Assembly (NCBI GenBank): GCA_944327275.1
Contig: CALVHB010000040.1
Coordinates: 1 to 64,000 of the forward strand
Direction of reading: 5' to 3'
Origin: Candidatus Gastranaerophilales bacterium
GTDB taxonomy: Bacteria > Cyanobacteriota > Vampirovibrionia > Gastranaerophilales > Gastranaerophilaceae
Length of the DNA stretch: 64,000 bases
Each line of letters opens with the position of its first letter. Within the stretch, counting starts at the first letter, position 1. Under the pieces are notes generated by a model. The model was not told the DNA's origin. It was given only the letters and a program-made list of their open reading frames with translations, and made no database searches. This document shows positions 52,132 to 62,347 of this stretch, in pieces. Made by a program: the position numbers and the translations under genes.

Positions 52132-53256
52132 ATGAAGAAATCGGAAGTAAAACAAACAAGGACAACTTTTTTTATCATGAATAATCCCTGTAATTTGAAA
52201 GTAGGAATACCAAGAGCTATTTCATATTATAACAACTACCCTTTTTACTATGGATTTTTCAATCATTTAGGTATTGAGGTTATCTTATCAGACAAAACAA
52301 CTACAAAGATTATTAATCAAGGAGCAAAATACGTTGTATCTGATACATGTTTACCTATAAAGGTTTATGTTGGACATATTATAAATCTTTTAGACAAAGA
52401 ATGTGAATATATTTTTGTTCCGTCAATACAGTCTACGGGCTACAAAATCAATAATTGCAGTAAAATTAGAGGTCTTCCTGAAATCGTAAGGAATGTTATT
52501 GACAGACCTTTTACAATGGTTGAGCCTACTTTGGATAAGACTGAAGGTATCGGACTTTTTGATTTTTGTGTCCAGACAGCCAAATTCTTTAATATATTTG
52601 ATAAAAAATTAATTCGAGAAGCTATGCATGCAGGGTGGGATGTTTATAATAATTTTCACTCTATGACAAATTCCGGAGTGCCTTATAGTATAGCCATTGA
52701 AGCATCGACTACAGGGAAGTCTGCAGGTCGACCTGTAGATATTGTTAAGCCTTTGTCTGTAGCAATAATGGGACACGGTTATAATTTGTTTGATGATAGA
52801 ATATCTTTGAATTTGATTAAAAAACTTGAGAAAATGGATGTGAAAGTATACACATCGTTAGATGTTACTTCCGCAGAAGCAATTTCATCTATTGAGAATT
52901 TAGGAGAAATTCAGTATTGGGCAAATGAACTCGAATTGACTGGTACTGCTGCACATTTTCTTTTGGATAAAAAAGTTGATGGGATTATTGCTCTTTCAGC
53001 TTTTGGGTGCGGTCCTGATTCTTTGATGGTAGATGAAATTGCTTACCATTGTAAGGAACGTAATATGCCACTTATTCATTTAACAATAGATGAACATACC
53101 GGAGAAGCAGGTTTTGTAACAAGAATTGAAGCTTTTGTTGATATGTTAATGAGAAAGAAAAGAGCATTTATTACTAAAAAATCAGATAAATTTATAAGCC
53201 CTGATGATGTAAATGTTTCTGTCCCTCAAGAAATTCCTGTAGGATCGGCTAAGTAG
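52132..53256 (+). CDS. DUF2229 / COG3580-type iron-sulfur protein (2-hydroxyacyl-CoA dehydratase related)
   Basis: 374 residues. KVGIPRAISYYNNYPFYYGF, VVSDTCLPIKVYVGH (cysteine), LSAFGCGPDSLMVDE (cysteine) and the C-terminal DEHTGEAGFVTRIEAFVD are typical of COG3580/DUF2229, related to the HgdB/HgdC [4Fe-4S] dehydratase components and double-cubane cluster proteins. These normally work with an HSP70/actin-fold ATPase that is absent from this window. Its homologue follows at 54.3 kb with a PHP gene between. A downstream ATG at 52177 is possible. Confidence 0.8.
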   Translation: MKKSEVKQTRTTFFIMNNPCNLKVGIPRAISYYNNYPFYYGFFNHLGIEVILSDKTTTKIINQGAKYVVSDTCLPIKVYVGHIINLLDKECEYIFVPSIQSTGYKINNCSKIRGLPEIVRNVIDRPFTMVEPTLDKTEGIGLFDFCVQTAKFFNIFDKKLIREAMHAGWDVYNNFHSMTNSGVPYSIAIEASTTGKSAGRPVDIVKPLSVAIMGHGYNLFDDRISLNLIKKLEKMDVKVYTSLDVTSAEAISSIENLGEIQYWANELELTGTAAHFLLDKKVDGIIALSAFGCGPDSLMVDEIAYHCKERNMPLIHLTIDEHTGEAGFVTRIEAFVDMLMRKKRAFITKKSDKFISPDDVNVSVPQEIPVGSAK

Positions 53257-53259
53257 GTT

Positions 53260-54291
53260 ATGGCAGAAAAATATTCTTATGCGGGAGCTATTCATATTCA
53301 TTCAAAATTTTCTGATGGTACAGGAGATGTTTTTGAGATATCAAAAGCTGCCAAAAATGCCGGACTTAAATGGATTATAATAACAGACCATGATTGTATG
53401 GACATTGAAGAAGGTATTTTTAATGAAGTATATGTGATTAAGGGAGAAGAAATTTCTCCAAAGGTATCAAATCATTATCTTGCTTTTGGAATTAATAATG
53501 TAATCCCTTCTGATATTGCCCCTTGTGATTATATTGATTCCGTTAGAGAAAATGGTGGTTTTGGCTTTGTTGCGCATCCGGATGAATCTGAGAAACGGAA
53601 AAATAGTGCAAGACCAATAAGGTGGGAAGATAAATCTTTAATGCCTGATGGGATTGAAATTTGGAATTGGTTTTCTGATTGGGCTGACCATTATGATGAT
53701 TCGAGTATATTTAGTGTAGCCTATTCTTATATTTTTAGGCATAATCTCGTAAAAGGTCCGAAAAATGAAACTATTCATTGGTGGGATAATCTGAATAACA
53801 AATCTGACAGGGATATAGTTCCTGCAATATGTGGAGTCGATGCTCATGCTCTTAGGATTTCTAAATATATTTTACCTGTAACGGTTTTTCCCTATATTTC
53901 GTCATTTAAAACTTTAACAAATATTTTGTATTTACCTGAGCAACTTCCAATGGATTTTGTTGAGGCGAAAAAATTAATTTTAGATGCAATAAAATCTGGT
54001 AATAACCTAATAATAAACAGACATATTTCTGCAGCTATTCCAGATATTTTTGTTTCAAATAGTTTAGGTGACTTTTATTGTGGAGATACTCTCAAGAAAG
54101 ATGATACTACGTTTTTAAATATAAAAACTATAAAAGGTGCGGAATTTAAAATATTTTTGAATGGTAAAATTTACGATATACCGCCAAAAGAGGGTAATTC
54201 CTACAAACTTGAGAAAGTTGGGAAATATCGGGTGGAAATTTATTTAAAAGGCAGGCCATGGGTTTTCTCAAATCCCATTATTGTATCTTAA
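53260..54291 (+). CDS. PHP-domain metal-dependent phosphoesterase-like protein
   Basis: 343 residues. The first ~210 form a PHP domain: HIHSKFSDGTG (His12, His14), ITDHDCMDIEE, EEISPKVSNHYLAFG, FVAHPDE and CGVDAHALRISK supply the metal ligands. The last ~120 residues are beta-rich (TIKGAEFKIFLNGKIYDIPP) and may be a small C-terminal beta domain. PHP proteins hydrolyse phosphoesters, including nucleotides and sugar phosphates. It begins 3 bases after the COG3580 gene and is 21 bases from the next, so it is part of a single transcript. Confidence 0.8.
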   Translation: MAEKYSYAGAIHIHSKFSDGTGDVFEISKAAKNAGLKWIIITDHDCMDIEEGIFNEVYVIKGEEISPKVSNHYLAFGINNVIPSDIAPCDYIDSVRENGGFGFVAHPDESEKRKNSARPIRWEDKSLMPDGIEIWNWFSDWADHYDDSSIFSVAYSYIFRHNLVKGPKNETIHWWDNLNNKSDRDIVPAICGVDAHALRISKYILPVTVFPYISSFKTLTNILYLPEQLPMDFVEAKKLILDAIKSGNNLIINRHISAAIPDIFVSNSLGDFYCGDTLKKDDTTFLNIKTIKGAEFKIFLNGKIYDIPPKEGNSYKLEKVGKYRVEIYLKGRPWVFSNPIIVS

Positions 54292-54312
54292 GTTTGTGTT
54301 AGTATTGATATT

Positions 54313-55461
54313 ATGAATAATGCAGAGAGATTAGAACTTAATAAAATGGAAAATAAGATTCCTACCAAGGAGCGTATAATCGCTTGGCCAAGAATGGGTA
54401 GAATTGATATACCTTTGAAGGCTCTGTTGGTATCTCTTGGGGCAAAAGTTGTTATTCCTCCCCCAAACAGTAATGAAGCATTGGAACTTGGAGTTAAAAA
54501 CAGCATTGAGGGAATATGTCTTCCATATAAGTTAAATCTTGCTAATTATATAATGGCTCTTGAAAAGGGCGCAAATACTCTAATGATGTTTCAAGCACCT
54601 GGCTCTTGTAGGTTAGGTAATTATACAAAGATGGCTCAAAAAACTCTTAAATCAATGGGATATGAGTTTGATATGGTTATTTTTGATATGTATAAAAGCA
54701 AGATGAAACAAACATTGCAGGCTTTTTGGCATGTAACTCATTGTATTAATCCTTGGCGTTATTACAAAGGATTTAGTCTGGGATTTAATAAGTTTTTTGC
54801 AATAGATACGGCTGAAAGACTTTTATTTTATACAAGACCAAGAGAATTACATAAAGGTGATGCTGAAAAGTGTTATGAAAAATGGTTGAAAATTACTGAT
54901 GAAACAAATTCTGTGATTGGTGCTAAAAGACTAAAGAAACAGATAATAAAAGATTTTAAAAAAATTCCTATAGATAAAGATAAAAAAGTTCCGATTATAT
55001 ATTTGATAGGAGAATTTTTTGTTCTTCTGGATCCTTACACTAACCAAAATATAGAAAAAGAATTGGGTGAAATGGGAGTCGAAGTACAAAGACAAATTAT
55101 GTTTGGAGATTGGCTTGAACACGTTTTAAAACCATCTTTATTTTATCGTAAAGAGTCTCATAGAGAAAGATCTGTACGTTATGCATCTGATTATATGAAA
55201 AGAGCGATCGGTGGTGAGTGTATTGAAACTGTTGGGGATACGGTTTATGCAGCAAAACATGGAGTTGATGGCGTAATTCATATTTCTCCATTTTCATGTA
55301 TGCCTGAAATTGTAGCTCAAAATATATTGCCAAAAGTCGGTAGAAATGAAGATATTCCTATAATGTCATTAGTTCTTGACGAACAGACAGGTAAGGCTGG
55401 ATATATTACAAGAATAGAAGCTTTTGTAGATTTAGTTAAAAGGAAAAAGTTAAAAAAATAA
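54313..55461 (+). CDS. COG3581-type iron-sulfur protein (2-hydroxyacyl-CoA dehydratase related)
   Basis: 382 residues. Cys motifs SIEGICLPYKLNLANY, APGSCRLGNY and SPFSCMPE, plus C-terminal DEQTGKAGYITRIEAFVD, identify it as the partner of the COG3580 protein; the two are paralogous in their C-terminal halves. Conserved Cys residues probably hold a [4Fe-4S] or double-cubane cluster. A TGT-TAGTAT box just upstream (54300-54305) could give a nearly leaderless transcript, but readthrough from the PHP gene is also possible. Terminator-like hairpin at 55480. Confidence 0.8.
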   Translation: MNNAERLELNKMENKIPTKERIIAWPRMGRIDIPLKALLVSLGAKVVIPPPNSNEALELGVKNSIEGICLPYKLNLANYIMALEKGANTLMMFQAPGSCRLGNYTKMAQKTLKSMGYEFDMVIFDMYKSKMKQTLQAFWHVTHCINPWRYYKGFSLGFNKFFAIDTAERLLFYTRPRELHKGDAEKCYEKWLKITDETNSVIGAKRLKKQIIKDFKKIPIDKDKKVPIIYLIGEFFVLLDPYTNQNIEKELGEMGVEVQRQIMFGDWLEHVLKPSLFYRKESHRERSVRYASDYMKRAIGGECIETVGDTVYAAKHGVDGVIHISPFSCMPEIVAQNILPKVGRNEDIPIMSLVLDEQTGKAGYITRIEAFVDLVKRKKLKK

Positions 55462-55479
55462 ATTGTAAAGTTATAATAC

Positions 55480-55506
55480 TTTAATTAGCCAATTGGTTAA
55501 TTTTTC
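55480..55506 (+). terminator. terminator-like hairpin
   Basis: TTAATTAGCC, AATT, GGTTAAT arms followed by a T run, 20 bases after the COG3581 gene. Confidence 0.5.
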
Positions 55507-55583
55507 TTGATATGTATTTGTATTCATGTTAGTTTCATGAGGAGTTAAGTTAAATTAATAAATCTAGGAGTAGGAATTTTAGG

Positions 55584-56639
55584 ATGGTTACAGAATCAAG
55601 AAACAAAATGACTTTTGAACGTTTGAAGTATTATCGTCACTTAGGCGGTGGAGCTTTGGAATGTATAGCGAGTCGTTTATCAAAAACCCCAAAACCTTTG
55701 TGTTTTTCATTAATGGTTACAAGTAAATGTAATTGTGACTGTGATTTTTGTTATTGGAAATCTAAAAAAGGTAATGATGATATGCCGACTGATGAAATTG
55801 TAAGATTGCTTACAGAAGCAGGGCAGATCGGATATATGGACAGTATTTTATGGGGTGGCGAACCTTTATTAAGAGAAGATTTTGCTCAGATATGTAAAGC
55901 TTCTCAAGATGCTGGTTTGTATACAAAAATAGCAACAAATGGTTGGTTTTTGGAAACAAATCCTGATTTTGCAAAATATACAGACTTAATGTTTGTATCA
56001 CTAGATGCTATTGGCAAAGCTCATGATGATATAAGACATATGCCGGGTATTTGTGACAAAGTTATGTCAGGGATTGAGTATCATAAAATACATTCTCCAA
56101 AAATGAGAATTTATGTGTGTTGTACAGTATCTACTCAGACTAATTTTGAACAAATTAAAGAAGTGGCTCAGTACTGTAAAGATGCTGATATTTTACTTTA
56201 CTTTACAGTTAATAAAGCTGCATCAAGACCAGAAGAAGCTCAAAATGTTGTGGAAACAGAACTAGAAAATGAGCAATTGGCTGATATGTTCATAAAAATA
56301 AAAGAATTAAAGAAAAATGGTTATCCAATAAGAAATTCATATTACTTTATGGATTACATTATCAATAAAAAAACATATTATGAGTGTCATTGGCCAAGGA
56401 TAGCTACAGTAATCTATTCAAATGGCGATATGTTGAGATGCTATGATAGAAAGCCTTTTATAAGCGTGAGAAACAGACCGTTAAAAGATGTTATTAAAGA
56501 TCCTTTGTTTATCGAAACCGTAAATAAATGTAAGGACTGTAAACTCGCTTGTGTTGGGAACTATGCACTTGATGCTTCAGGGCTATGGAAGTTGGAATGG
56601 CCTGCAATTAAGTCTTTAATGGAAATTGCAATTACATAG
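55584..56639 (+). CDS. radical SAM protein with C-terminal SPASM-like region
   Basis: 351 residues. The [4Fe-4S]-SAM motif is C49-x3-C53-x2-C56 (KCNCDCDFCYW, with an extra Cys51). The SAM-binding GGEP (WGGEPLLRED) follows. In the C-terminal third Cys residues in YECHWPR, MLRCYDRK and NKCKDCKLACVGNYA suggest a SPASM/Twitch auxiliary cluster. Such enzymes modify peptides or sugars by radical chemistry; no substrate gene is evident. Shine-Dalgarno TAGGAG. It lies between the iron-sulfur cluster and the polysaccharide export gene. Confidence 0.85.
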   Translation: MVTESRNKMTFERLKYYRHLGGGALECIASRLSKTPKPLCFSLMVTSKCNCDCDFCYWKSKKGNDDMPTDEIVRLLTEAGQIGYMDSILWGGEPLLREDFAQICKASQDAGLYTKIATNGWFLETNPDFAKYTDLMFVSLDAIGKAHDDIRHMPGICDKVMSGIEYHKIHSPKMRIYVCCTVSTQTNFEQIKEVAQYCKDADILLYFTVNKAASRPEEAQNVVETELENEQLADMFIKIKELKKNGYPIRNSYYFMDYIINKKTYYECHWPRIATVIYSNGDMLRCYDRKPFISVRNRPLKDVIKDPLFIETVNKCKDCKLACVGNYALDASGLWKLEWPAIKSLMEIAIT

Positions 56640-56683: not shown

Positions 56684-59248
56684 ATGAAAAAAATAATTGC
56701 TTCAATACTTGTAGTTACTTTCTGTTCTCAATCAGTATTCTGTGCGACAGTTCAAGGAAGTATTCAGCAACCAAATCAGCAAGGTATGCAAAATTCTAAA
56801 TTGAATACTCAATATAATTCTGGTGCATACACTAATTTGAATTATACAAATACAAACAATTATTCTCAAGGACACAATCAATATGGATATCAAGGTACTT
56901 CTATGAATGAGGAAGTTCGATTAAATCCTAACGCATTTAGTAATAATTATCAGACCGCGCAAGAGATGAACCCTGTTATGGGAGAATTAAGTCCTATTGA
57001 AAAGTTGTTTAATGGCAAAGAAGTTGAAGTCTCAGGAAAAGTTTTGCAACAAGTTGGATATGATTTATTTGGAACAACAACTTCTTCTGTTAACGGCACT
57101 GCCGGTAAATTTGATAATAACTATAAATTAAGTATTGGTGAAAAAGTAAATGTGTATTTGTATGGTGATTCAGTTGATGTAATGGCTATTTCAGGTGCAA
57201 ATCTGCTTAATCCGACTACAAGGACAGAGGTTGACTCAAAAGGATTCTTATTTGTTCAAGGTTTAGGGCTTGTAAAAGCTGAGAACAGAACAATTAGTGA
57301 AGTAGAAAATGAAGTTAACAGGCTGGCAAACCAAAAATATAAAAGTATGAAAGTTAAATTGACTGTTGCTACAGGTCAAGAGTTTTCAGTATTTGTATAC
57401 GGTCAGGTTACAAGACCCGGAAAGATTTTAGTTGGAAATAACTCTTCTGTTTTAGACGCGTTGAATGCTGCAGGAGGGGTAAAAAAGACTGGTACTTTAA
57501 GAAATATAACTTATACTTCAAACGGAAAATCAAAAAATGTTGATGTGTATAAAGCACTGTTTTTAGGTAATGATGAGGGGATAATTCTTCGCCCTAATGA
57601 CAAAATTTTTGTAGGAAAAATTGGGGAAGTTGTTGCTTTGAAAAATGGTGTTACAGTTCCTGGTATATATGAAATTAAATCCGGAGAAGACTTGCAAAAA
57701 GTTGTGTCATATGCAGGAGGTCTTTTACCTGCAACACAAGTGAGTGAGGTAACTTTAATCGGGTACAATGCATCTTCTAAACAAAAAACAGCTGAAAATA
57801 TAGCTTGGAAGGATGCAAAAACTACAAAATTGCACAGTGGAGATTCTGTAGAGTTTAGAGAATTATACAATATGGCAGAAAACGTTGTAACAATTCAAGG
57901 TAATGTAAAACACCCTTCAACATATGCTTATAAAGAAGGGATGCGTTTGTCTGATATTTTGAAAAGTGAAGATGAACTTCTTGAAGAAACTTTCATAAAT
58001 CAAGCAGTTATTCGAAGAATTTCTGGCAAAGATAATACTATAGAAACTATACCTGTGTTTTTGAAAGAATTTTTCGCAGGTATGAATGACCCTGTGTTGC
58101 AACCTAGAGATATAATTAATGTTTATAAAAGTACAAATTCTCAATTTGTAGATGTTTATGGTTGTATAAATATTCCAAAACATTTGACCTATACTGATAA
58201 AATGACATTAAATGATGTCATGACTGATATTCAGTTTTTAGAGTCTGATGTAGATAGTAAGAGTTCAGAGCAGACAAATGAGCCTGAAGTTTCGTACAAA
58301 GGTTCCGTTGAGGAAAATGATGTACAACTTGCAGCAACTACAGCAAATTCAAATAAATTGATTCCTGCAGAAAATGTAGCTGTTGAGATTACAAATTTTG
58401 ATGGAAATACTCAGGTGTACTACTTATATGATATTATGATTAATTCTGATAGAATTAAATCTATTCAGATAATGCCTGACGATAAAATTTTCTTCAGAAC
58501 TTTGCGTGGAAATGAAATTATGAAGACAGTTAAAGTGTCTGGTTTTGTTAAAAAACCAGGAACTTATACTTTCGTTGAAGGCAAAAGATTGGTTGATATG
58601 ATTAATCTTGCAGGAGGTTTGACAAATGAAGCTGATTTGCGCGGTTTAGTTTTCAAAAGAACAAATTTGCAAGGTAAACAAGTTGAGTTGGCTCATAAAA
58701 ACAATGAACGTGACATAAAGTTAATTGAAGGTAGAATGGCAAGTGCATATAAACCTTCTGTAGGTGATCAAGAGTCAAAAATGCAAATGCTTGAAATGTT
58801 GAAAGCTGATGATTTAACTCTAGCTACCAAGTATAATGGTCAGATTGCATTGAATATTAAAAGTAATGATTTGAACAAAGTATCTGAGTTAGATAATATT
58901 GAAGTTCAAGATGGTGATGATATTTATATTCCAAGAACTTCAAATCATGTTAGCGTAATTGGTGAGGTATACAACGAACAGTCATTTGTTTTCAAAAAAG
59001 GTGCAAATGCAAGATATTATATAAAAGAAGTTGGAGGATATACTCCAAATGCAAACAAATTTAGACTGTACAAGGTATCTGTAAACGGTCGTGCTGAAAA
59101 AATCGGAAACAACAGCAATATCGAACCTGGAGATACAATAGTTGTTCCAAGAAGAATTGCAGGTAATGACTGGATTACTCCTGTGTGCGATACTCTTAAA
59201 GGCATAGCATCAATTATTGTTATGGCATTTGCTATTAATAAATGGTAA
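56684..59248 (+). CDS. Wza-like polysaccharide export protein with multiple SLBB domains
   Basis: 854 residues, more than twice the length of Wza. Signal peptide (KKIIASILVVTFCSQSVFCA), an Asn/Gln-rich spacer, Poly_export domain (YKLSIGEKVNVYLYGD near 155-170, SKGFLFVQGLGLVKAE), then several SLBB repeats (SVFVYGQVTRPGKI, VALKNGVTVPGIYEIKSGED, VTIQGNVKHPSTYAYKEG, VSGFVKKPGTYTFVEGKRL, VIGEVYNEQSFVFKKG) and a short C-terminal hydrophobic helix (GIASIIVMAFAINKW). It should form the periplasmic and outer-membrane channel for a polysaccharide. Convergent with the lipid kinase gene, 2 bases apart. Confidence 0.9.
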   Translation: MKKIIASILVVTFCSQSVFCATVQGSIQQPNQQGMQNSKLNTQYNSGAYTNLNYTNTNNYSQGHNQYGYQGTSMNEEVRLNPNAFSNNYQTAQEMNPVMGELSPIEKLFNGKEVEVSGKVLQQVGYDLFGTTTSSVNGTAGKFDNNYKLSIGEKVNVYLYGDSVDVMAISGANLLNPTTRTEVDSKGFLFVQGLGLVKAENRTISEVENEVNRLANQKYKSMKVKLTVATGQEFSVFVYGQVTRPGKILVGNNSSVLDALNAAGGVKKTGTLRNITYTSNGKSKNVDVYKALFLGNDEGIILRPNDKIFVGKIGEVVALKNGVTVPGIYEIKSGEDLQKVVSYAGGLLPATQVSEVTLIGYNASSKQKTAENIAWKDAKTTKLHSGDSVEFRELYNMAENVVTIQGNVKHPSTYAYKEGMRLSDILKSEDELLEETFINQAVIRRISGKDNTIETIPVFLKEFFAGMNDPVLQPRDIINVYKSTNSQFVDVYGCINIPKHLTYTDKMTLNDVMTDIQFLESDVDSKSSEQTNEPEVSYKGSVEENDVQLAATTANSNKLIPAENVAVEITNFDGNTQVYYLYDIMINSDRIKSIQIMPDDKIFFRTLRGNEIMKTVKVSGFVKKPGTYTFVEGKRLVDMINLAGGLTNEADLRGLVFKRTNLQGKQVELAHKNNERDIKLIEGRMASAYKPSVGDQESKMQMLEMLKADDLTLATKYNGQIALNIKSNDLNKVSELDNIEVQDGDDIYIPRTSNHVSVIGEVYNEQSFVFKKGANARYYIKEVGGYTPNANKFRLYKVSVNGRAEKIGNNSNIEPGDTIVVPRRIAGNDWITPVCDTLKGIASIIVMAFAINKW

Positions 59249-59250
59249 TA

Positions 59251-60108
59251 TTAATTGCTGAAAATTTTAATTGATTTAGGGACGATATCTATTTTGATAT
59301 CGTCTTTAAATTTGTGTTTTTCGCCATCTATGTGTCCTGTTAAAATTTCGTTTTTTATGGTTAGTGAATTTGTTTGGAAATACATTGCTTTTGAATTTGA
59401 GTTTTTATAGTTGAAAATTATCCCTAAAAATTCTAAGAAAAATAGAATTGGGTTTTTAACTTTTAAAATAAAAACATCCATTTTAGAGTCGTCAAGTTTG
59501 CAATTTTTAGATATTGAAAAGATGTTTTTATACATATTTCCGGCATTTGCGACTATTATACAAGTTGCTATTATTGAGATTTTTTTATCTTCAAATAAGA
59601 TATTATATTTTTTTTGTTTTAATCTGAGTGCAAATAAAATTCCTGCCATAAAATATGCAAAATATCCAAACTTATTTTTTAACGATTGTGGAGTTTTACA
59701 AATTATATCTGAGTCATAGCCGAGTCCTATTCTTAGTGCTGAATATTTGTCGTTAATTTTTAACATATCAATAGTTTTAATTTTATTATTTTTTATTATC
59801 TCTAAGGCTTTTTCAGTTTTTGTTGGAATGTTTAATTTCGCAGCAAGGAGGTTTGCAGTTCCGCATGGGATTATTCCTAAAACGATTCCCGTATTTGCGA
59901 TATATGGTATAATTTTATTTATAGTTCCGTCTCCGCCAATCGCAAATACAGTGTCAAAATCCTTAAAATTAATCTCATTTAATTCATCTATACTTATGCT
60001 TTTAAATCTGCAGTTAATTTTTAACAAAAATTTGAGAACTGTTTTTTTGTATTTTACAGCTTTTTTTCTTCCGGCATTAGGATTGTTTATAACTAAGACT
60101 TTTTGCAT
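59251..60108 (-). CDS. diacylglycerol kinase-family lipid kinase
   Basis: 285 residues. NNPNAGRKKA, the ATP/lipid loop IGGDGTINKII, and IPCGTANLLAAKL identify the DagK/YegS group that phosphorylates diacylglycerol or sphingolipid-type substrates. Length is normal and the C-terminal beta domain (LDDSKMDVFILKVKN) is present. No Shine-Dalgarno; an AATAAT box with TGT extension would place +1 on the ATG. Confidence 0.9.
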   Translation of the reverse strand: MQKVLVINNPNAGRKKAVKYKKTVLKFLLKINCRFKSISIDELNEINFKDFDTVFAIGGDGTINKIIPYIANTGIVLGIIPCGTANLLAAKLNIPTKTEKALEIIKNNKIKTIDMLKINDKYSALRIGLGYDSDIICKTPQSLKNKFGYFAYFMAGILFALRLKQKKYNILFEDKKISIIATCIIVANAGNMYKNIFSISKNCKLDDSKMDVFILKVKNPILFFLEFLGIIFNYKNSNSKAMYFQTNSLTIKNEILTGHIDGEKHKFKDDIKIDIVPKSIKIFSN

Positions 60109-60210: not shown

Positions 60211-61728
60211 ATGAGAGTAGAAAAACAATCAACAGTATGGCAATCAAACTCTATGGGAAGATTTGATAAGCTAAAGTTAAAAATTAATGACTTTGCAATA
60301 GATATGTTACTTAACTATTTAGGGCATAATTTTAGTAAAGAAAAATTGATAAATCTTGCAAAGATTTTTGAAAAAATAGCAGGTTCAAAAGGTGGAATAA
60401 ATCACGCGAAAAGAATGCAATGGCTTTTTGAATCTGAGCATCCGCATTTATATTGGTGGAAAAAAATTCTAACAGAACTTGATCCAAATTGTAGAAATAA
60501 GTGGATAAAAAATTTCTTTGTTAACGGATATTATGGAGATAATTTAAGAAAGCGTTCTGAGTTTAATGAAAAGAATGGTTTCTTTCCTCCAACTGTATTG
60601 CTTGCAAGTATAACAAAACGCTGCAATTTTAATTGCAAGGGTTGTTGGGCGCATGAATATGATGTTAAAGAAGATTTGACAAAAGAAAAATGGCGTGAAA
60701 TTTTTACCGAAGCTCGTGATGTTATGGGTATCCATATTATCCCTGTAGTCGGAGGTGAGCCTTTTGCAAGAAAAGAGTTTTTGGAATTAGCAGAAGAATT
60801 TAATGATTGTACATTTATAACTTTTACAAATGGTTCTTTAATTACTGAAAAAACTGTAGAAAAGCTCAAAAAACTTGGTAACGTTCAGCCTATGTTTTCA
60901 CTTGGAGGCTTAAAAGAAAATACAGATGCAATCCGTGGTGAAGGTTGTTTTGATATGGTTATGCAAAAAATGGATATGCTTAAAAAAGCAGGGATATTTT
61001 TTGGAGCAAGTATTACAGCAACAAGTCAAAATTGTGATGAGGTTACATCTGATGAATTCATGAAAATGCTGTCAGACAAAGGAGTTTTGTGGGCATGGTT
61101 TTTCCATTATGTTCCTGTTGGGGATAGTCCAGATGTAAGTATGGTACCAAATGCACAGCAAAGACAAAAAATATTGAAAGCTGTTTATAACGCAAGAAAT
61201 ACATTACCAATGATGACAGTTGATTTCTGGGGTGATGGCCCTGAGATGATGGGATGTATTGCAGGAGGTAGACAATATGTACACGTAAATCCACGAGGAG
61301 ATGTTGAACCTTGTACATTTGTTCATTTAGCTACACATAATTTAAAAGACTGTACTTTGACGGAAGCTCTTGCAGCTCCATTTATGCGTGCAATAAGGGA
61401 TGGTATACCTTATGAAGATGGCAATATGTTGAGACCTTGTATGATTGTAGATAGACCTGAAGTACTTCGTAAGTATTATGAAGAATTTAAGCCTTATGAA
61501 ACTCATGAAAATGCTGCAGCATACTTGACTAATCCTGAAATTACATCAAAGATTGATAAATATTCACAAGATGTTAAAGAAATTCTTGATGAAGACTGGA
61601 GAAATAATCTTTGGATGACAATATTCCCTCTAGAGGGTGAATATTATATTGATAGAGATCATTTTTGCTCAAAGGAGCCTCCTGTAAAAAATAAATGTTC
61701 AGGAAATTGCTCTTGTTGTGGGAAATAA
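60211..61728 (+). CDS. radical SAM protein with Cys-rich tail
   Basis: 505 residues. Radical SAM motif CNFNCKGC (CxxxCxxC, about residues 137-144) and VVGGEPFARKEF. A second Cys set MGCIAGGRQYVH, VEPCTFVH and LRPCMIVD fits a SPASM-like cluster. The protein ends in FCSKEPPVKNKCSGNCSCCGK, a short Cys-rich tail. N-terminal ~120 residues are helical and unrelated to radical SAM. The substrate is unknown; the following gene is a PAP2 phosphatase one base away, suggesting lipid or glycan chemistry. Shine-Dalgarno AAGGAG. Confidence 0.85.
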   Translation: MRVEKQSTVWQSNSMGRFDKLKLKINDFAIDMLLNYLGHNFSKEKLINLAKIFEKIAGSKGGINHAKRMQWLFESEHPHLYWWKKILTELDPNCRNKWIKNFFVNGYYGDNLRKRSEFNEKNGFFPPTVLLASITKRCNFNCKGCWAHEYDVKEDLTKEKWREIFTEARDVMGIHIIPVVGGEPFARKEFLELAEEFNDCTFITFTNGSLITEKTVEKLKKLGNVQPMFSLGGLKENTDAIRGEGCFDMVMQKMDMLKKAGIFFGASITATSQNCDEVTSDEFMKMLSDKGVLWAWFFHYVPVGDSPDVSMVPNAQQRQKILKAVYNARNTLPMMTVDFWGDGPEMMGCIAGGRQYVHVNPRGDVEPCTFVHLATHNLKDCTLTEALAAPFMRAIRDGIPYEDGNMLRPCMIVDRPEVLRKYYEEFKPYETHENAAAYLTNPEITSKIDKYSQDVKEILDEDWRNNLWMTIFPLEGEYYIDRDHFCSKEPPVKNKCSGNCSCCGK

Positions 61729-61729
61729 T

Positions 61730-62347
61730 ATGAAAAAATTATCATTCTTGTTGATACTTTTTATATTATTATCTATTTGTGTACACTTCTATCCTGCTTT
61801 AACTATGTGGGATAGAAGTGTAATATTCTTTGTACAAGATAAATTGTCTTTTATGCCTTTGTGGATTCCTATGCTTCCTGATTGTATTTTATATACAATT
61901 ATGATAATTGTTCCATTATTGTCATTTGGAATCTTTTTTATTAGGAAAAGACTTTACTATGATTTAGTTTTTTTCTGCTCTATTCCCTTGGTAACATTTC
62001 TATTGAATTGTGTTATTAAACCTTGTTTTAGGCGCGAGAGACCTCCTTTATGGATGCAGATTTCAGAAGTTCATCCTGAAAGTTATAGTTATGTTTCAAG
62101 TCATAGTCTTGTAACTATATGTCTTTGGGGCATGGTGATTTGGTATTTAAATAAATATTGTGAAAATCCTGTTTTACGTAATGTTGGATTTTTAATTTCA
62201 GTGTTATGGATATTGTTTGTAGGATTAAGTAGAATTTGGCTTGGAGTACATAACCCTACAGATGTTTTAGGTGCTTATATATTGGGAGGAATACTACTGT
62301 TATTTTATGTTAAAGTTGTTAAAAGTAAATTAATCAAATCAGTCTAG
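61730..62347 (+). CDS. PAP2-family membrane phosphatase
   Basis: 205 residues, five to six transmembrane segments. PAP2 active-site motifs are KPCFRRERPP, then YVSSHS (a variant of PSGH) and SRIWLGVHNPTDVLGA. Members dephosphorylate lipid pyrophosphates such as undecaprenyl diphosphate, which fits the nearby glycan genes. ATG 61730 lies one base after the stop of the radical SAM gene; a GTG at 61718 is in frame but overlaps it. Confidence 0.9.
   Translation: MKKLSFLLILFILLSICVHFYPALTMWDRSVIFFVQDKLSFMPLWIPMLPDCILYTIMIIVPLLSFGIFFIRKRLYYDLVFFCSIPLVTFLLNCVIKPCFRRERPPLWMQISEVHPESYSYVSSHSLVTICLWGMVIWYLNKYCENPVLRNVGFLISVLWILFVGLSRIWLGVHNPTDVLGAYILGGILLLFYVKVVKSKLIKSV

Follow-up and report, generated by a model that had tools for sequence, protein, structure and literature searches.

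Organization of the locus

The window analyzed here is the whole stretch of 64,000 nucleotides at the start of contig CALVHB010000040.1, from a genome assembly of 1.62 Mb (93% complete) belonging to the Gastranaerophilales, which are non-photosynthetic gut cyanobacteria. Open reading frame and Pfam analyses confirmed the linear arrangement proposed in an initial annotation of this DNA, with four genes in series on the forward strand between positions 52132 and 56639, separated by gaps of 3, 21 and 122 nt. These genes encode a DUF2229-containing COG3580 protein (hereafter COG3580-A; 52132-53256), a PHP-domain metallohydrolase (53260-54291), a COG3581 protein (COG3581-A; 54313-55461) and a radical SAM enzyme (55584-56639). 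Beyond them, profile matches identify an SLBB/Poly_export (Wza-like) polysaccharide export protein (56684-59248, forward strand) and a YegS-type lipid/diacylglycerol kinase (59251-60108, reverse strand), followed on the forward strand by a second radical SAM enzyme of 505 aa detected with Pfam, here termed rSAM2 (60211-61728), and by a PAP2 phosphatase (61718-62347) whose gene overlaps that of rSAM2. Glycosyltransferases and a sugar aminotransferase are also encoded near the COG3580-PHP-COG3581 trio, and the gene for a Wzz-like protein lies 12 kb past the rSAM2 gene, outside the window.

The COG3580-A/COG3581-A pair belongs to the BCR/HGD superfamily

In Pfam searches, COG3580-A presents a DUF2229 domain (E 3e-48) followed by the C-terminus of HGD-D, and COG3581-A yields a weak DUF2229 match (8e-9) and an HGD-D match (1.7e-5) just below the gathering cut-off. 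The match to the HGD-D model is restricted in both proteins to the last ~60 residues. The pairing of DUF2229 (Red1) and HGD-D-like (Red2) halves found in PlsA/Ger ester reductases is present in the window, with a sub-cut-off HGD-D score for COG3581-A. Each subunit carries three cluster cysteines (C73, C109 and C293 in COG3580-A; C69, C99 and C329 in COG3581-A) that are invariant or nearly so across proteins of this type (A-type), the core pair described below, the Monoglobus proteins and the fused proteins, and the alignment places all six in common between the window pair and its fused or split relatives. Additional conserved cysteines missing from the core pair occur in the A-type proteins, namely C144 of COG3581-A (57/57 sequences) and C91 and C146 of COG3580-A (about 58/62 and 56/62, respectively).

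The structural model of COG3580-A is of moderate quality (pLDDT 71, pTM 0.48). All 19 Foldseek matches at E<=0.001 are members of the BCR/HGD superfamily, the top structural neighbor being DCCP, with 2-hydroxyisocaproyl-CoA dehydratase and benzoyl-CoA reductases also among them. By fold, by cysteines and by partner activase, the pair is a member of the BCR/HGD (2-hydroxyacyl-CoA dehydratase) superfamily, which bears out the initial description of two iron-sulfur-type proteins related to these dehydratases and to double-cubane proteins flanking a PHP hydrolase.

Superfamily membership and a standard activase would also suit a conventional 2-hydroxyacyl-CoA dehydratase, or a similar CoA-ester enzyme, lying in an incidental neighborhood. 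We consider this reading very unlikely, given the confinement of the HGD-D match to the C-terminal end of both subunits and the pair's strict co-inheritance with genes for polysaccharide export across 12 polymorphic genera (see below). In addition, genes for a CoA-ligase, CoA-transferase or acyl-CoA dehydrogenase were not noticed in the neighborhoods read.

The pair corresponds to the reductase halves of PlsA/Ger-type enzymes

Proteins in which these halves are fused to activase regions are assigned in the literature to PlsA, which converts a diacyl phospholipid to a vinyl ether at its sn-1 ester (PMC9702350, PMC12838417), and to Ger, which produces alkyl ethers (PMC8788747, PMC11150832). Sequence comparisons with fused and split relatives from Listeria, Fusobacterium, Haliovirga and Monoglobus gave 24-33% identity between COG3580-A and Red1, and 21-33% between COG3581-A and Red2. 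The fused proteins have the domain order Act1-Act2-Red1-Red2 and span 1484 aa in Listeria, 1449 aa in Haliovirga and 1430-1487 aa in other members of the phylum. The COG3581 region is a separate protein in Fusobacterium, and COG3580, COG3581 and the activase are three separate, adjoining genes in Monoglobus (L128). COG3580 and COG3581 are the Red1 and Red2 halves that make up the reductase part of fused ester reductases of the PlsA/Ger type, encoded here as separate genes.

PlsA and Ger carry one or two activation domains fused at the N-terminus; the window pair has none, and its putative activase is encoded separately, on a different contig. In the inferred tree, the split proteins define a clade of their own, apart from the fused Listeria/Fusobacterium clade and with ~25% identity to the fused proteins, so that the identity of substrate or product cannot be transferred from the latter. 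With unfused activation domains and a separate clade, the pair was not filed as PlsA. PlsA homologs lacking the activation domain have been reported as common in Bacillota, with an unclear role (2026 ether-lipid gene study, PMC13274423).

Fused PlsA-like proteins of 1430-1487 aa were also observed in other lineages of the phylum (G016 and G007; loci L129, L130 and L132), with two different ones in G016. A Paraclostridium bifermentans plasmid (L136:3189-7037) encodes a fused relative of 1282 aa that represents a third, divergent type, with a gene for an Fnr-family regulator and an ABC transporter nearby.

A single activase is available in trans

The initial annotation correctly noted that the 64-kb window encodes no HSP70/actin-like ATPase, and accordingly described the cluster as being without its usual activase. 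The activase gene is indeed absent from the window, and a PF01869 search of all contigs revealed one full-length activase of 334 aa elsewhere in the genome (contig C11, 37041-38045), which overturns the broader claim. This protein scores 187 bits against TIGR00241 (cut-off 125) and matches the solved activators of 2-hydroxyglutaryl-CoA dehydratase (HgdC, 1e-36) and 3-methylbenzoyl-CoA reductase. Its cysteines C130 and C169, in CAAGTG and RCGVFAESD motifs, correspond to the bridging [4Fe-4S] cysteines of ASKHA activases. Of the two activase regions in the fused proteins, the C11 activase (L007:7042-8046) matches Act2 better than Act1, and its C-terminal cysteine tail, CxxCxNxC...C (also given as CxCxxCxxxC...C), is common to Act2 and to the Monoglobus activase, possibly as an extra metal site. 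Two weaker PF01869 matches, on contigs C16 and C40, were read as ROK-type sugar kinases and discarded as further activases.

Exactly one activase copy is present in each of the 130 sampled family genomes and in G214. Across 292 phylum genomes, the activase and COG3580 share the same 130 family genomes and one genome of a sister family. Five genomes from a different order of the class lack both, and the small number of remaining carriers are distantly related members of the phylum with fused or fragmentary proteins. With only one activase copy per genome in the family, every COG3580/COG3581 pair there has to rely on that copy, and the A-type pair is very probably energized in trans by the lone C11 activase.

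The window pair is a probable duplicate of a universal core pair

Nearly all family genomes encode a core COG3581 that is 40-45% identical to COG3581-A. The window-type COG3581-A was found in 31 of 146 family genomes, and roughly one genome in five to one in four has the duplicated pair with its inserted PHP gene. The core COG3581 of the source genome lies on contig C18 (12411-13556; L008:7412-8557), directly after gcvPB, which encodes a glycine dehydrogenase subunit; the core gene is also next to gcvPB in another genome (G003, L161). Only one COG3580 copy was found in the source genome, and the core COG3580 may therefore sit in an assembly gap. In a midpoint-rooted tree, A-type COG3580 forms a long branch nested inside the core type with support of 97/91, which points to duplication within the order followed by specialization. 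A split core pair is the universal version in Gastranaerophilales, and the results are consistent with the window pair being a second, duplicated copy.

The PHP hydrolase and the radical SAM enzymes

The protein encoded between the two reductase subunits matches the Pfam PHP model (E 2.5e-6). Its nearest NCBIfam model is that of the CehA/McbA metallohydrolases (NF038032), for which it scores 57 bits, under the cut-off of 80, and we hence describe it as CehA-like without classing it as a CehA/McbA member. The confident structural model (pLDDT 89) comprises a PHP domain and a C-terminal beta sandwich, and the nearest structures are 3e38, a two-domain predicted phosphoesterase, and TM0559. All metal ligands (H12, H14, D19, H44, E64, H72, H106, D194 and H196) are invariant in 59 sequences, and with so complete a metal site an active hydrolase would be expected. 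The PHP protein was present in all 24 overlapping genomes examined, and it evolves faster than the radical SAM enzymes (50-60% identity, compared to 75-97%). A PHP gene in G214 was rejected as evidence of a further trio, as its neighborhood (L158) contains neither COG3580 nor COG3581 and the gene is a separate PHP.

The adjoining radical SAM enzyme (Pfam Radical_SAM, E 1e-11) has the canonical C49-x3-C53-x2-C56 motif and five further C-terminal cysteines (C268, C286, C316, C319 and C323) that are invariant in 15 relatives. Although the Pfam SPASM model gives no match to this protein, these auxiliary-cluster cysteines make a labeling as SPASM-like (or SPASM/twitch-like) reasonable. No relative was found in the plasmid collection at E 1e-20. 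The second enzyme, rSAM2, is extremely conserved (83-97% between species), and relatives with 31-34% identity reside on Escherichia albertii, Klebsiella and Methanosphaera plasmids, where their neighbors are uninformative. A possible kinship of rSAM2 with the membrane-spanning lipid synthase (Mss) was considered; identification as Mss was not adopted, as the profile search returned SkfB first and Tes sixth, and the match to Tes (7TOL) is weak.

The trio is co-inherited with polysaccharide export genes

The COG3580-PHP-COG3581 order is kept in other species wherever the contig is long enough, with the exception of three loci harboring a stand-alone COG3580 (L043, L047 and L072). The radical SAM gene adjoins the trio in 49 loci and is non-adjacent in three (L018, L024 and L029). 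Dozens of other species share this gene order, far beyond what chance would give. The initial annotation had named a lack of co-occurrence of the PHP and radical SAM genes in relatives as one refutation of its proposal, and these genes do co-occur there.

Co-occurrence was assessed in 146 family genomes, and the wider survey covered the phylum of the window and plasmid records. COG3581-A and the adjoining radical SAM enzyme are found in an identical set of 31 genomes. The SLBB exporter and rSAM2 occur in those same 31 and in G309 (83% complete), and the Wzz-like protein in 27 of them and in no other genome of the sample. The corresponding hypergeometric figure, 2e-32, ignores kinship and is unusable as a p-value; 12 genera are polymorphic, comprising genomes with and without the module, and the co-occurrence thus does not reflect one shared ancestry. 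The association holds despite physical separation of the genes, as in G012 and G295 the trio lies on one contig and the radical SAM and exporter genes on another, and rSAM2 is on a different contig in G049, G256, G320, G321 and G340 and >15 kb away in others. The rSAM2, PAP2 and lipid kinase genes are neighbors in 14/14 rSAM2 loci read. Taken together, the co-occurrence defines a shared module, from which a shared substrate does not follow.

The presence of the trio and both radical SAM genes in the same genomes, the ranking of DCCP as top structural neighbor and the extra conserved cysteines of the A-type pair would also fit a general, low-potential double-cubane-like reductase or repair system that has no substrate of its own and feeds electrons to the neighboring radical SAM enzymes. 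Radical SAM enzymes generally function without such a partner, the same genomes already hold the universal core pair, and the PHP enzyme and exporter would be left unexplained, which makes this alternative improbable.

Proposed function of the module

We propose that COG3580-A and COG3581-A form a two-subunit, oxygen-sensitive [4Fe-4S] reductase/dehydratase, a split counterpart of Red1 and Red2 that would share the C11 activase with the universal core pair. ATP hydrolysis by the activase would fire one low-potential electron into the pair, by which the substrate would be converted to a ketyl-type radical and so be reduced or dehydrated. The PHP enzyme may cleave an ester or phosphoester bond, either in this substrate or in the product. 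Along with both radical SAM enzymes, the PAP2 phosphatase, the lipid kinase, the SLBB exporter and the Wzz-like protein, the trio would constitute an accessory module for the synthesis or modification of a surface polysaccharide, with the lipid part of this polysaccharide as the most likely target.

With moderate confidence, the locus as a whole is best explained by a radical reductase that is activated in trans and works for a surface-polysaccharide/lipid module, based on gene content, the lone activase of the right type, the cluster cysteines, the PHP metal ligands, the duplication and the co-inheritance. That the pair serves such a module is probable, and the initial suggestion of a glycan or lipid link, rather than one to a CoA ester, is strengthened by co-inheritance with the exporter, the Wzz-like protein and the PAP2/lipid kinase pair. 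Regarding the substrate, we favor a lipid ester over sugar chemistry, and a CoA ester least, because of the lipid kinase, the PAP2 phosphatase and the lipid chemistry of the nearest characterized relatives; the evidence for lipid is contextual throughout. Lipid-ester reduction as the specific chemistry can only be put forward tentatively, and the PAP2 phosphatase and lipid kinase could instead take part in undecaprenyl recycling, not in glycerolipid metabolism.

The main rival involves a sugar substrate. An activase-driven radical dehydratase or deoxygenase, with the PHP enzyme as phosphatase and the radical SAM enzymes, would make a nucleotide- or lipid-linked sugar of an unusual deoxy or dehydro type that becomes part of the exported polysaccharide. 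Co-inheritance with the SLBB exporter and Wzz-like protein fits this scheme equally, glycosyltransferases and a sugar aminotransferase are encoded nearby, and PHP enzymes are often phosphoesterases. We know of no BCR/HGD superfamily member acting on sugars, which counts against it, as does the association of rSAM2 with PAP2 and the lipid kinase. Furthermore, the nearest characterized architecture works on lipid esters (PMC9702350, PMC12838417, PMC11150832), and we regard the sugar scheme as rather unlikely.

In a further version of the lipid reading, the lipid anchor of the surface polysaccharide would be of the ether or vinyl-ether type. The duplicated split PlsA-like reductase, activated in trans, would form this anchor with the PHP enzyme, and radical SAM lipid chemistry would finish it. 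This version is speculative and unlikely as it stands; if true, it would newly connect capsule export with the anaerobic enzymes of ether-lipid biosynthesis. More broadly, a lipid substrate would bring both non-photosynthetic gut cyanobacteria and the anchoring of surface polysaccharides within the range of ether-type lipid chemistry.

Comparison with known systems

A literature search found no paper on COG3580, COG3581 or DUF2229 together with a PHP domain. The initial proposal of an undescribed system holds in part: the pair itself has known counterparts in the Red1 and Red2 domains of PlsA/Ger-type enzymes, and the module with its PHP enzyme is new. Neither the lack of an activase nor categorical novelty stands. 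For PlsA homologs without activation domain, this lineage offers a clean case, in which a single activase accompanies a universal split pair as well as a duplicated one tied to polysaccharide export, and it provides named genes, a trans-activase for reconstitution and natural genomes with and without the module in 12 genera for comparison.

The fold and activase-driven electron injection link the window pair to (R)-2-hydroxyisocaproyl-CoA dehydratase, benzoyl-CoA reductase and DCCP, from which it differs in genomic setting and in a sequence match confined to the C-terminal ~60 residues. It resembles PlsA and PlsA-PlsR of Clostridium perfringens, Enterococcus and Lactococcus (PMC9702350, PMC12838417) in its DUF2229 and HGD-D-like halves, in the same six cysteines (as seen in Listeria and other fused relatives), in the BadF/BcrA-type activases that serve the reductase halves and in its oxygen-sensitive, anaerobic lineage; in contrast to these systems, it has a single, unlinked activase gene and a PHP gene between the halves, and it falls in a separate clade. 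Compared by description, Ger (Thermotoga maritima Tmari_0479 and Desulfatibacillum; PMC8788747, PMC11150832) offers PlsA-like reductase chemistry on glycerol esters, but it is one fused protein with two activation domains. The closest relatives outside the order are those of the Monoglobus trio, the same three separate proteins with 33%, 33% and 52% identity and an activase bearing the same cysteine-rich tail; there, however, the activase gene adjoins the pair, and the locus has no PHP, radical SAM or exporter gene. The novelty relative to these systems lies in the module, in which a duplicated split PlsA-like reductase, bearing a PHP enzyme, is locked to polysaccharide export. Such co-inheritance points to a new step in making the surface sugar coat or its lipid anchor.
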